Source: Serratia nematodiphila DZ0503SBS1
GTDB taxonomy: Bacteria; Pseudomonadota; Gammaproteobacteria; Enterobacterales; Enterobacteriaceae
Assembly: GCF_000738675.1 (NCBI RefSeq)
Contig: NZ_JPUX01000002.1
Location: forward strand, 186,001 to 250,000
DNA: 64,000 nt
Direction: 5' to 3'
The first letter of the stretch is position 1; the number at the start of each line of letters is the position of its first letter. Below the pieces are notes generated by a model that saw only the letters and a list, made by a program, of their open reading frames with translations, was not told the origin of the DNA and searched no databases. The translations under genes were made by a program, and so were the position numbers. Below, in pieces: positions 1 to 4,118 of the stretch.

Positions 1-58
1 GATGCTGCTGTTTTAGCTGGCGCAGCGTTTCCGCCGACGCCGGAGTGCCCGCTGTCAT
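1..58 (-). CDS. phnE2: second phosphonate ABC transporter permease, N-terminal fragment
   Basis: Only the first 19 codons lie in the window (MTAGTPASAETLRQLKQQH); the gene runs off the left edge. Its ATG overlaps the TGA of the upstream permease gene (ATGA), which indicates translational coupling in the phn operon. Many phosphonate/phosphite importers carry two PhnE-type permeases that form a heterodimeric channel. The second-permease assignment rests on position, since no diagnostic motif is visible in this fragment. Confidence 0.6.
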   Translation of the reverse strand, partial: MTAGTPASAETLRQLKQQH

Positions 59-957
59 TTTGCCCCCTCCACCACGCGCTTGCGCAGCTCGCCTGACACG
101 TAGTCGAGCACGGAAACCACCACGATGATCAGCAGCAGCGTCATGCTGACCTGATCGTAGCGGTCGAGTTTAATGTTGGTCATCAGCTCCTGGCCGATGC
201 CGCCCGCCCCCACCAGCCCCAAAATGGTCGACTGGCGAAAGTTGATCTCCAGCCGCATGAAGCTGTAGGAGAGAAACACCGGCTTCACCTGCGGCCACAG
301 GCCAAAGCGCATGCGCTGCAGCGGCGTGGCGCCGCAGGCCGCCAGCCCGCGCACCGGTTTGTTGGAGGCGGTTTCGATCGATTCGTAGAACAACTTGGTC
401 AGGCTGCCGATGGTGTGCAGCGCCAGCGCCAGGAAGCCGGGAATGGCGCCGATGCCGAACGCCATCACGAACATCACCGCCCACGCCAGCTCCGGCATGG
501 TGCGCAAGAACGCCACCAGCGTGCGGATCGCCAGCCGCACCGAGGCCGGGGTATAAGTGTTGCCGGCCGCCAGAAACGCCAGCACGGTCGCTACCAGCAC
601 CGAAAAAATGGTCGCCGCCAGCGCCAGCTGCAGGGTCTCCCAGATCAGCGGCAGCTGGATGTTCAGGCGATAGCCCCAATAGGCCAGCGAGCCTTCGGTG
701 CGCCCGTCGGCGAACAGCAGGTGCCAGTGCAGCGTCGGCACGGTTTCGGCCAAATAGTCGAAGAAGTGCGGAATAGACACCCAGACGGTGTGCAGGTTGA
801 ACTCGGCGAAGTTGCCGGCGCCCAGGTACAGCACCACCAGCCCGAGCGACCACAGCAGCGCTTCGCGCTTTTGCTTGCGGCGGATCCGTTGGTAATAGTG
901 TGCGAAATCGGTATTCAAAACAGGTCTTCCATCGTTATGGAACAAGGGGTTCAGCAT
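55..957 (-). CDS. phnE: phosphonate ABC transporter, inner-membrane permease PhnE
   Basis: About 300-residue integral membrane protein. A long polar N-terminus (about 40 residues with a basic RIRRKQKREA stretch) precedes the hydrophobic spans. The binding-protein-dependent permease signature is near the C-terminus (LRLEIN-type context, then GLVGAGGIGQELM), where the permease docks on the ATPase. It forms the channel for phosphonate or phosphite uptake with PhnC and PhnD. An ATG at 972 would add five residues, but ATG 957 has an AAGGGG Shine-Dalgarno six bases upstream and is preferred. That SD and start sit inside a 26-bp perfect palindrome. The gene lies 39 bp after phnD and overlaps the next permease by four bases. 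Confidence 0.9.
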   Translation of the reverse strand: MLNPLFHNDGRPVLNTDFAHYYQRIRRKQKREALLWSLGLVVLYLGAGNFAEFNLHTVWVSIPHFFDYLAETVPTLHWHLLFADGRTEGSLAYWGYRLNIQLPLIWETLQLALAATIFSVLVATVLAFLAAGNTYTPASVRLAIRTLVAFLRTMPELAWAVMFVMAFGIGAIPGFLALALHTIGSLTKLFYESIETASNKPVRGLAACGATPLQRMRFGLWPQVKPVFLSYSFMRLEINFRQSTILGLVGAGGIGQELMTNIKLDRYDQVSMTLLLIIVVVSVLDYVSGELRKRVVEGAK

Positions 958-969
958 GCTGAACCCCTT
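944..969. promoter_or_regulatory. 26-bp perfect palindrome over the phnE ribosome-binding site and start
   Basis: Two 13-base arms, AAGGGGTTCAGCA and TGCTGAACCCCTT, meet without a spacer. On the minus-strand transcript the palindrome contains the AAGGGG SD and the preferred phnE ATG at 957, between phnD and phnE. It could fold as an intercistronic hairpin that limits phnE translation or protects phnD mRNA, or it could be a protein-binding site. The palindrome is exact; the function is inferred. Confidence 0.6.
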
Positions 970-996
970 CATTCGGGCGGCCGAGGCAGCCGGGAA

Positions 997-1929
997 TCAA
1001 CGGTCGCCTTTGGTCAGCTCGCGCTTCATATCGATGATGGTCTGGTATTCCGCCAGGGTAGTGTCGCCGATGTGCTGTTTGCCGCCCATCGCTTTGATAA
1101 AGCACGCGTGATCGTCTTTATCCAGCTTCTTGATGGCGGTGACCACTTTGGCCTTGAAGTCGGCCGGCAGCGAGTTGCTCACCAGGATCGGGCCGTTCGG
1201 GATCAGCGGCGACTGCCAGATGATGCGGATCTGCTTCATCAGGTCCGGGTGATCCATGCGGATCATGCGGGTGAACGCGCCGCTGGTGTAGCCGGTGTTG
1301 TAGTCGCCGATCATCGACGCCCAGGTCACCGCGCCTTCAAACTGGCCGTTCAGCACGCCGAGGATGTCCTGCTCGTGGCCGCCGGAGAAGGTGACGCTGG
1401 AGAAGGTGTTGTTGTATTTGTTGTCGACCGTGCCGCCGAACAGCTTTTTAAACGCCTGGTTCGGGATCAGGAAGCCGGAGGTGGAATCCGGATCGGCGAA
1501 GCCGATGGCCTTGCCCTTCAGGTCTTCCAGTTTCTGGTACGGGCTGCCGGCCTTCACCACCACCACCGAGTGGTAGCCGCGCGACTGGTCGACGTCATCG
1601 ACCGCGATGCCGACGATGTCCACCGCTTTCGGATCCTTGATGTAGACCGAGGCGAACGACGACGGCGACATGCTCAGCACCAGGTCAATCTTGCCGCCCA
1701 GCAGGCCCTGGATCACGCCGGAATAGTCGGACGAGTTGCGCAGCTTGGTATCGACGTTCAGCTCTTTATCCAGGAACTGCTTCACGCACTGGTTATCGCC
1801 GATCTGCTGGGTGGCGTTCTGGCCGCCGAGAATGCCCAGGTTCAGCTCTTTCGGCGCATCCGCTGCGGCAGCATTAAATACCATCATCGCGCCGGCCATC
1901 AGGGTGGTCAGACTCAATACTTTTTTCAT
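997..1929 (-). CDS. phnD: phosphonate ABC transporter, periplasmic substrate-binding protein PhnD
   Basis: 310 residues with a clear Sec signal peptide (MKKVLSLTTLMAGAMMVFNA, cleavage near AAAADA). The mature protein has the type II periplasmic-binding fold of the PhnD/PtxB family: LNLGILGGQNATQQIGDN at the start, then GVIQGLLGGKIDLVLSMSPSS, and FADPDSTSGFLIPN, the segment that binds the phosphonate head group. It captures phosphonates (or phosphite) in the periplasm and delivers them to the PhnE permeases. It is the second gene of the minus-strand operon, 40 bp after phnC. No C-P lyase genes are present in the window, so the substrate's fate is not visible here. Confidence 0.9.
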   Translation of the reverse strand: MKKVLSLTTLMAGAMMVFNAAAADAPKELNLGILGGQNATQQIGDNQCVKQFLDKELNVDTKLRNSSDYSGVIQGLLGGKIDLVLSMSPSSFASVYIKDPKAVDIVGIAVDDVDQSRGYHSVVVVKAGSPYQKLEDLKGKAIGFADPDSTSGFLIPNQAFKKLFGGTVDNKYNNTFSSVTFSGGHEQDILGVLNGQFEGAVTWASMIGDYNTGYTSGAFTRMIRMDHPDLMKQIRIIWQSPLIPNGPILVSNSLPADFKAKVVTAIKKLDKDDHACFIKAMGGKQHIGDTTLAEYQTIIDMKRELTKGDR

Positions 1930-1969
1930 TAGGTGTGCCTTGTGTGTAAAGGATAAAGGTCAAAGTGCT

Positions 1970-2803
1970 TCAATGGATCTGATTGGCTTCTTCGCCATAC
2001 AGCTGGTGCAGGATCCGTTCGTTCAGTTGCGAAGGATGCCCGTCAAACACGATCTTCCCGTGGGCGATGCCGATCACCCGCGAGCAATACTCTTTCACCA
2101 GTTCGACCGAGTGCAGGTTCACCATCACCGCGATGCCGTCTTCGCTGATTTTCTGCAGCGCATCCATGATGCGGCGGGTGTTTTTCGGATCGAGCGACGC
2201 CACCGGCTCATCGGCCAGCAGGATTTGCGGATTTTGCATCAGCGCGCGGCAGATGGCGACGCGCTGCATCTGGCCGCCGGAGAGGTGCTCGGCGCGCTGC
2301 AGCGCGTGCGGCAGCATGTTGAGCCACTGCAACAGCTCAATGGCGCGAGCGCGATCGGCGTCATCGAACAGTTTGAAGAACGATTTCAGGGTGGAGGTGT
2401 GGCTCAGGCGCCCCAGCAGCACGTTGGTCATCACGTCCAGCCGCGGCACCAGGCAGAAGTCCTGGAAGATCATGCCGCAGCGCGCGCGCCACTGGCGCAT
2501 CTGGCGGCCGGCAAGCTGGGCGATATCCTGCGCCACGCCATCGTCTTCGAAGTGCAGCATCTCGCCGCAGCTGGAAGGAATAGTGCCGTTGAGGGTATGC
2601 AGCAGCGTGGACTTGCCCGCGCCGGAACGGCCGATCACCGCCACGAATTCGCCGGCGTGCAGATCGAAATTGATGTCATCCAGCACGCGCTGCTGCGCTT
2701 TGTAGGCCTTGCCGAGCCCCTTTACCGATAACACTTTGCGGGATGCGGCGGCGTGCTGCCCTGGAAAGTCGTGCTGCGCCAATTTTAACAGTGCCTGAGC
2801 CAT
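1970..2803 (-). CDS. phnC: phosphonate ABC transporter ATP-binding protein PhnC
   Basis: 277-residue ABC ATPase. Walker [10 protein letters not shown], signature LSGGQMQR, Walker B ILLADEP and switch histidine in MVNLHSVEL are all intact. About 23 polar residues precede the first beta strand ([11 protein letters not shown]), slightly longer than the usual PhnC. First gene of phnC-phnD-phnE-phnE2, preceded by a candidate Pho box, so induction by phosphate starvation is expected. It energises the PhnE channel at the cytoplasmic face. Confidence 0.92.
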
Positions 2804-2920: not shown

Positions 2921-3961
<1,041 letters not shown>

Positions 3962-3971
3962 TCAACGCCAC

Positions 3972-4002
3972 AAAAAATAATGCCGCCAAACCGGCGGCAT
4001 TA
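3972..4002 (-). terminator. Rho-independent terminator of the trpS2 attenuator
   Basis: On the minus strand, a perfect stem TAATGCCGCC / GGCGGCATTA with a five-base GGTTT loop is followed by a six-T run. It lies between the leader peptide stop and the trpS2 start, so it must be read through for trpS2 expression. Its upstream arm (TGCCGCC) can pair instead with GGCGGCA at 4023-4029 just after the leader stop, forming an antiterminator. Confidence 0.88.
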
Positions 4003-4029
4003 AAAAGAGATGTGAATACTCGTGCCGCC

Positions 4030-4071
4030 TCAGAAGAGGCGCCACCATGACTGATTGTGGGTGGAGTGCAT
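4030..4071 (-). CDS. trpS2 leader peptide with tandem Trp codons
   Basis: A 13-codon ORF, MHSTHNQSWWRLF, too short for ordinary gene calling. An in-frame ATG at 4083 would give MNISMHSTHNQSWWRLF. Two consecutive TGG codons (4042-4047) abut segment 1 (GCCTC, 4036-4040), which pairs with segment 2 (GAGGC, 4027-4031). A ribosome stalled at the Trp codons would cover segment 1 and free segment 2 to pair with segment 3 of the terminator. This is the trpL arrangement. No strong SD precedes either start, the weakest part of the model. Confidence 0.8.
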   Translation of the reverse strand: MHSTHNQSWWRLF

Positions 4072-4091
4072 CGATATATTCATGGCATCAA

Positions 4092-4118
4092 GGTATACCC
4101 GCTGCGGCAGCACGTCAA
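4092..4118 (-). promoter_or_regulatory. candidate promoter of the trpS2 leader
   Basis: On the minus strand, TTGACG (4118-4113) is followed after 15 bases by TATACC (4097-4092), or after 17 bases by the poorer TACCTT. Either would start transcription just before the leader peptide. The match is moderate and the exact start is uncertain. Confidence 0.4.

Follow-up and report, generated by a model that had tools for sequence, protein, structure and literature searches.

Putative tryptophan-codon leader with a fifth, ribosome-binding-site-proximal segment upstream of an auxiliary tryptophanyl-tRNA synthetase gene in Serratia nematodiphila

The leader trpL is the textbook parent of attenuation logic. 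In the erm and cat translational attenuators, a stalled ribosome alters the pairing by which the next ribosome-binding site (RBS) is concealed or exposed. An attenuator of the auxiliary, indolmycin-resistant trpS gene of Streptomyces was reportedly described by Vecchione and Sello in 2010. Experimental work on this auxiliary gene is cited in the available part of PMC4787780. A candidate attenuator upstream of S. avermitilis trpS2, and predicted attenuators of Streptomyces trpS and leuS that are compared with gammaproteobacterial pheST, are given in the accessible text of PMC1262725. According to the available sections of PMC8079986, Streptomyces trpL1 and trpL2 are leaderless and S. lividans trpL2 has no uridine-rich stretch. 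The accessible parts of two further papers mention a small leader coding sequence ahead of trpS in Caulobacter (PMC4117421) and discuss switching between the sensing systems of synthetase genes (PMC2965389). No description of the leader presented here upstream of an auxiliary trpS in proteobacteria, or of a fifth segment, was found in the available texts of the open PMC literature; subscription literature lay outside this scope and may hold a prior mention. The word trpS is absent from the main text, as far as accessible, of a Shewanella RNA screen.

A region with a related layout is present in the window, which is the whole stretch of 64,000 nucleotides of S. nematodiphila DNA that was analysed. 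Between 4118 and 3917 of the minus strand it contains, in the 5' to 3' direction, a candidate promoter, a leader open reading frame (ORF), the 1:2 pairing, a spacer, a terminator, segment 5, a Shine-Dalgarno sequence and the ATG of trpS2 (3928). The features are as follows.

4113..4118, minus strand: candidate -35 hexamer TTGACG, of which TTGAC is kept in the listed Serratia relatives
4092..4097, minus strand: candidate -10 TATACC, 8 nt upstream of the leader ATG
4030..4083, minus strand: predicted leader ORF MNISMHSTHNQSWWRLF, 17 codons and stop; relatives share an MN/MK-type start and carry WW close to the C-terminus
4042..4047, minus strand: tandem Trp codons TGG TGG, read in the sequence
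4036..4045, minus strand: segment 1 GTGGCGCCTC, whose partner is segment 2
4022..4031, minus strand: segment 2 GAGGCGGCAC, alternative partner of segment 3
3992..4002, minus strand: segment 3 TAATGCCGCCG, 5' arm of the terminator, pairing with segment 4
3978..3988, minus strand: segment 4 TGGCGGCATTA, 3' arm of the terminator, pairing with segment 3
3972..3977, minus strand: T-run (T6) of the intrinsic terminator, tallied across relatives below
3953..3960, minus strand: segment 5 CCGGCGGT, complementary to segment 3 and loop GCCGCCGG (3991-3998)
3959..3968, minus strand: anti-RBS arm GCGTTGATCC, sharing two bases with segment 5 and facing the trpS2 Shine-Dalgarno
3936..3940, minus strand: trpS2 Shine-Dalgarno AGGAG, read in the sequence
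2921..3928, minus strand: trpS2, auxiliary tryptophanyl-tRNA synthetase (TrpRS) of 335 aa, TrpRS-II-type by sequence, from profile and structure-relative matches

Pairing 1:2 consists of CGCCTC/GAGGCG (4036-4041 with 4026-4031) with flanking GTG/CAC, and pairing 2:3 of GGCGGCA (4023-4029) with TGCCGCC (3993-3999). The terminator TAATGCCGCCG/TGGCGGCATTA spans 4002-3978 with 11 pairs and is followed by T6 at 3972-3977. The tandem Trp codons, the hairpin 1:2, the antiterminator 2:3 and the terminator 3:4 with its T-run had been noted upstream of trpS2 in a sequence-only reading of this DNA, and all were found where it had placed them. Its 13-codon leader is replaced here: some relatives (e.g., L012, MNIFPQFTSCFSWWRLF) lack the start at 4071, and the leader ORF probably starts at the ATG at 4083, which is common to the relatives and gives 17 codons. 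Segment 5 is an addition to that reading, which had only segments 1-4; the likely ORF, the breadth of the leader, its tie to a second TrpRS and the probable division between transcriptional and translational output are also added. For the 103-nt leader, the folding energy is -37.7 kcal/mol compared with -24.6 ± 3.2 in 200 dinucleotide-shuffled sequences (z -4.1), none of which reached so low a value. The Trp codons themselves (TGGTGGCG, 4040-4047, minus strand) are complementary to segment 3 (TGCCGCCG, 3992-3999, minus strand). This pairing is chosen in the no-ribosome fold of window RNA ending at segment 3, and such helices are also among those listed for many other loci.

Like trpL (Rfam RF00513), the window element has a short tandem-Trp ORF, competing 1:2, 2:3 and 3:4 pairings and a T-run terminator, and the logic is the same. 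It differs in preceding a TrpRS gene and in having a fifth, RBS-proximal segment, and the trpS2 leaders of other lineages mostly have no clear terminator. Membership of Rfam Trp_leader RF00513 was rejected, as the window element scored 25.0 bits (E 0.0048) with a gathering threshold of 41; in the same genome the true trpL (MNTYISLHGWWRTSLLRAV) scored 81.4 bits, and five further places also outscored the trpS2 leader. The attenuator of the Streptomyces auxiliary trpS likewise has a Trp leader peptide before a TrpRS gene, but it is actinobacterial, has one Trp codon (MMTRTCTQLWRAA) and, in the texts available, is described with no RBS-proximal partner segment, whereas the window element has a pair of Trp codons, to which the Serratia form adds a canonical terminator. 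S. lividans trpL2, as the accessible text presents it, resembles most relatives of the window element in being leaderless and having no uridine-rich stretch. The erm/cat type senses antibiotics, whereas the window element would sense Trp-tRNA charging; this likeness follows the general description of those attenuators. Control by a T-box, which was expected for related Firmicutes trpS genes, was rejected: no Rfam T-box match at the gathering score was found in the window or in 18 related loci, which include six enterococcal/lactobacillar trpS loci.

The trpS2 product matches TIGR00233 (trpS) with 232.6 bits (cut-off 176.75), and a second trpS, 32% identical to trpS2, is encoded elsewhere in the genome. 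The closest solved structures of TrpS2 are 2a4m and 1yi8 ('Tryptophanyl-tRNA synthetase II', about 415 bits; next TrpRS 218), which we take to be the Deinococcus radiodurans protein, so that the D. radiodurans TrpRS II would be the closest solved relative. Sequence comparison aligns DLHAIT in TrpS with DLQGLT in TrpS2. That histidine matters for indolmycin, and the change may serve as a lead, but only a lead, to indolmycin resistance of TrpS2. No paper containing both 'indolmycin' and 'H43N' was found in the open PMC literature. TrpRS II has been linked to nitric-oxide synthase (PMC9437257, in the part available), and no description of the purpose of a spare proteobacterial TrpRS was found in the accessible texts of open PMC papers. 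Downstream of trpS2, beyond a gap of 117 nt, the same strand carries genes for a phnC-, phnD- and phnE-like ABC transporter (55-2803, minus strand).

The trpS2 protein was detected at E ≤ 1e-80 in 65 of 394 genomes sampled from the order (own genome included), with 22 carriers among 30 genomes of the genus. The sequence-only reading had named relatives without the Trp codons or the paired segments as evidence against itself; when the upstream DNA of all 65 carriers was read, a WW leader was present in 58 of them and in 22/22 Serratia carriers. The seven carriers without it are L131, L138, L142 and L143-L146. In the class-level set (369 genomes), the protein was found in the own genome and in three others at 46-56% identity, and those three have no leader. 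WW leaders were found in six loci of the non-Serratia set (L016, L017, L021, L028, L031 and L076), and the upstream DNA of the Cupriavidus loci L019, L020, L022, L024-L026 and L029 and of the enterococcal loci contained none. Caballeronia L043, L053, L061, L070 and L072 retain the segments and have a Cys codon in place of the second Trp codon (TGGTGC, ..WCRS); judged by its codons, this WC leader is a single-Trp version of the sensor. In an Elusimicrobia MAG, a TrpRS-II-type gene has an Rfam 2dG-II riboswitch (L035:1239-1309, minus strand) nearby.

In the plasmid collection, 94 records matched and 15 were examined. The leader is present in 14 of these 15 loci and absent from Acinetobacter L180. 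The 14 carriers are Aeromonas, Photobacterium (2), E. coli plasmids (2), Klebsiella, Burkholderia, Proteus, Vibrio (2), Salinivibrio, Rhizobium, Variovorax and Methylocystis. On the E. coli plasmid pB379_2 (L172), trpS2 and its WW leader have IS26 upstream and IS1 further downstream, and on the E. coli plasmid pKTa005_5 (L173) an IS3000 transposase and a predicted FosA8 feature lie close to them. The gene trpS2 thus seems to move together with its switch. The locus search in E. coli genomes gave no match.

A covariance model was built from segments 1-4 only, with a training set that includes the window and several of the compared loci. On the own genome the trpS2 leader scored 63.0 bits and the next hit 23.2. 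Among 398 genomes of the phylum, 22 contained matches at E ≤ 0.001, and 19 of the 22 matches precede a TrpRS: nine directly before trpS2 places known in the order and ten by a visible TrpRS start. Three of the 19 (L204, L206 and L209) were recognised by reading the DNA after the automatic flag had missed them; the same flag rang falsely for L212, which looks like a chance match, and L213 was left unjudged. Nine of the 19 are new loci. A further match, L208 (G1049), has a WWW leader MKKTMIKIGNWWWRP and a T-run terminator ahead of a gene unlike TrpRS, and is perhaps a trp biosynthetic attenuator. These comparisons place the predicted leader device far beyond Serratia, with counts that are less independent than they look, as many loci are congeneric and the locus sets overlap (e.g., L012/L084).

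The presence of the leader follows the spare status of trpS2. A search for the housekeeping TrpS in the 64 other trpS2 carriers found both enzymes in 58 and the TrpS2 type alone in six, one of which (G285) is 79% complete. The WW leader occurs in 57/58 genomes with two TrpRS versus 0/6 with TrpS2 alone; the single exception is the truncated L131, whose contig begins 231 nt before the match. In the non-Serratia set, 40 of 67 genomes were checked, namely all 11 leader-bearing ones (five WC, six WW) and 29 of the 56 leaderless ones, with genome completeness not given. A second TrpRS was found in 11/11 leader-bearing genomes, two of which (L016 and L076) belong to the order of the window or near it. 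The 29 leaderless genomes have a single TrpRS in 24 cases and two in five (L018, L033, L034, L035 and L065). The association has the same direction in both genome sets, in which the counts are not independent trials because the genomes are related. By this comparison the leader appears to track an auxiliary trpS2. In L142 (G186), where TrpS2 is the sole TrpRS, the GCGGC and GCCGCC segments (2 and 3) remain together with a single Trp codon, and a WW ORF is absent; this looks like a leader decaying after loss of the housekeeping gene.

The start of the leader mRNA was compared across 98 distinct loci. In 70/98 loci, versus 10% of shuffles, the best-scoring -10 sits 6-8 nt upstream of the leader ATG. 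A Shine-Dalgarno core ahead of the leader ATG occurs in 7/98 loci versus 13% of shuffled sequences, which is no enrichment, and one ahead of the trpS2 start in 29/33. A strict promoter consensus scan of the window region gave no hit at threshold. The placement of the -10 and the scarcity of the Shine-Dalgarno core point to a near-leaderless mRNA that would begin at, or a few bases from, the leader ATG, for which the leaderless Streptomyces trpL1 and trpL2 offer a precedent.

Folding with the ribosome in different states was modelled for 33 loci, with RNA ending at segment 3 for the 2:3 probabilities. When segment 1 was covered by a ribosome at either Trp codon, the probability of 2:3 exceeded 0.5 in 32/33 loci (exception L108), consistent with the trpL-type ribosome-mediated attenuation that the sequence-only reading had proposed. 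With no ribosome, 2:3 exceeded 0.5 in 9/33 loci, 1:2 prevailed and the window value was 0.03. With the ribosome at the stop codon, 2:3 was at most 0.5 in 22/33 loci and above it in 11/33; the values in Serratia were 0.51 (window), 0.97 (L008), 0.99 (L012) and 0.51 (L157). As a stop-codon ribosome does not clearly suppress 2:3 in Serratia, the modelled OFF state requires the ribosome to leave and 1:2 to form again, rather than a ribosome that conceals segment 2. P12 is 97% paired with two both-sided changes in the Vibrio/Shewanella-like alignment, and P23 is 93% paired there with one; P34 is 94% paired with three in the Enterobacteriaceae-like alignment. The covariation score of P12 (0.153) is insecure because a version slid by +3 scores higher (0.204). 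Relatives and modelled pairings together did not refute the sequence-only reading, which is supported in outline.

Segment 5 lies before the trpS2 RBS, and its sequence complements the apex of hairpin 3:4; the window pair is GCCGCCGG:CCGGCGGT. The 3:5 pairing and the anti-Shine-Dalgarno pairing were assessed by shuffle tests in 36 loci, chosen from the 93 distinct leader sequences so as to be diverse. Compared with 300 dinucleotide shuffles of the distal region, 3:5 reached p ≤ 0.05 in 32/36 loci and in 16/18 cluster representatives, in a test that was not blind because the loci were chosen after a helix listing, incomplete in its middle part, had been inspected. The window gave p 0.003, and L016, L101, L102 and L171 failed. 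Examples are GCCGAAAGGCG:CGTCTTTCGGC in Kluyvera L076, GCCGGAAGGCG:CGTCTTCCGGC in L122 and GCCATAAGGCG:CGTCTTATGGC in L108, and the helix reaches 13 bp in L017 and 16 bp in L174.

Covariation of 3:5 was examined in two alignments made from sequence only, A1 (12 Enterobacteriaceae-like sequences) and A2 (20 Vibrio/Shewanella-like sequences). In A1 the helix is 92.4% paired, 2/11 pairs are changed on both sides and covariation is 0.205 (shuffled 0.132, best slid 0.102). In A2 it is 95.8% paired, 6/12 pairs are changed on both sides and covariation is 0.331 (shuffled 0.202, best slid 0.132); further pair types in A2 are fewer than in shuffles (10 vs 11.8). Among the Serratia-type sequences 3:5 is kept in 13/14, without covariation; the exception to the kept register is L016, where a shifted pairing has p 0.073. 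In the nine new loci found by the model, 3:5 passed the test automatically in seven and in 9/9 after two start codons were corrected by hand, both misses having come from an in-frame ATG inside segment 5.

On the RBS side, the trpS2 RBS is a possible partner of the anti-RBS arm, which overlaps segment 5; the pairing takes the form GTATCTCC:GGAGATAC in Vibrio L176 and that of a 16-pair helix in L008. The anti-Shine-Dalgarno pairing reached p ≤ 0.05 in 20/36 loci and 9/18 representatives and failed in 16/36. The window gave p 0.083, and Serratia L008, L012 and L157 gave p 0.000-0.007. The helix is 94.2% paired in A2 with one both-sided change, and 80.7% paired in the Serratia alignment without covariation. 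Equilibrium folding, like the 2:3 modelling above, was carried out for 33 of the 36 loci, L021, L028 and L102 having been left out by hand. The mean free Shine-Dalgarno rose from 0.27 unconstrained to 0.36 with segment 1 covered and 3:4 barred (13 loci up, 2 down, 18 within 0.05; Wilcoxon 0.006), and that of the window from 0.43 to 0.49 in the modelled ON state. When 3:5 was additionally barred, the mean was 0.24, with a drop of more than 0.05 in 15/33 loci. The modelled states give supportive but weak backing to a freeing of the RBS.

The terminator differs between Serratia and the other lineages. For the T-run tally, 81 of the 93 distinct sequences were grouped as 14 Serratia-type (including L016, an Aeromonadaceae MAG) and 67 others; L094 has no hairpin. 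A T-run of at least five after the hairpin occurs in 13/14 Serratia-type sequences versus 2/67 others, and six T in eight in 14/14 versus 16/67. Ten of these 16 are Vibrio-like, so a weak terminator is possible there; the Shewanella-like group has 0/9 by either measure. As Serratia has a strong terminator and the other lineages have a doubtful one or none, translational control is likelier in those lineages, and the output is probably split into a transcriptional form in Serratia and a translational form in the other lineages.

The region is likely a ribosome-mediated Trp-codon leader that switches on a spare TrpRS as the charging of Trp-tRNA(Trp) drops. Sequence and comparison establish the segments and their complementarity, the covariation of 3:5 outside Serratia, the retention of WW and the association with a second TrpRS. 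From these we infer the following order of folding and direction of response. The leader mRNA would start at or close to the leader ATG. When Trp-tRNA is charged, the ribosome would complete the leader and depart, 1:2 would re-form, 2:3 would not, and 3:4 would form. In Serratia, transcription would then stop at the T-run, and in transcripts that escape, the stretch ahead of the trpS2 RBS may fold onto it. When charged Trp-tRNA is short, the ribosome would stall at the tandem TGG codons and cover segment 1, segment 2 would capture segment 3, and the terminator would not form. Segment 5 could then pair with the free segment 3 and loop, pulling the anti-RBS arm off the Shine-Dalgarno.

A plain transcription attenuator, in which segments 1-4 suffice for Serratia and the genus has segment 5 and the anti-RBS arm as relics or by chance, is the less probable account, though one to be taken seriously. 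It agrees with the strong Serratia terminator and its T-run in 13/14 sequences, with 3:5 and anti-RBS helices that do not covary within Serratia, with the small predicted effect on the RBS and with the anti-RBS p of 0.083 in the window. However, the complementarity of segment 5 is kept in 13/14 Serratia-type sequences and stands out from shuffles in the window (p 0.003), and 3:5 covaries in other genera. The position of segment 5 next to the RBS makes a purely transcriptional account incomplete for the relatives, and perhaps for Serratia. It is rather improbable that 3:5 is instead an OFF structure that occludes the RBS side or stabilizes the mRNA. The unconstrained fold already favours 3:5 in L017, L043, L179 and L181, so this pairing may be the default state in some lineages. 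Barring it nevertheless leaves the Shine-Dalgarno less free in the 15 loci named above, and segment 5 overlaps the best anti-Shine-Dalgarno arm in 36/36 loci, an overlap that is partly by construction because the arm was sought around segment 5.

A main action in trans of the leader peptide or of the terminated leader RNA, with the cis switch secondary, has a parallel in rhizobial peTrpL, a Trp leader peptide with a trans role in Sinorhizobium (PMC7298713, as far as its text is available). It is very unlikely here: the leaders share WW and a few following residues, but their N-termini diverge between genera, which is what a ribosome trap should show. GC-rich DNA often contains small ORFs and hairpins, and the window region (1501 bases) has 2 terminator-like sites versus 1.7 expected; an ordinary terminator beside an accidental small ORF is nonetheless hardly credible, being contradicted by the conservation, the covariation, the shuffle tests and the tie to a second TrpRS. 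The best reading of the Serratia form is a transcriptional attenuator apparently built on a more widespread RBS switch. On a wider scale, the case is evenly balanced for an RNA class, absent from the papers and the Rfam families searched, of five-segment, near-leaderless Trp-codon leaders in alpha-, beta- and gammaproteobacteria, found only with a second, TrpRS-II-type synthetase in the genomes checked. Such leaders would act primarily in translation through an anti-anti-Shine-Dalgarno, the Serratia terminator would add two-level control, and the leader would be lost when the housekeeping TrpRS is lost.

If this reading of the leader holds, one RNA device would have shifted between transcriptional and translational control, with a terminator of a single genus placed around a shared RBS switch. 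The spare TrpRS would serve as a reserve that is produced only once the main enzyme fails to keep tRNA(Trp) charged, and the trpS2 leader would provide a native, ready-made sensor of such failure. The link between the leader and the second copy offers a rule for separating auxiliary from housekeeping TrpRS genes.
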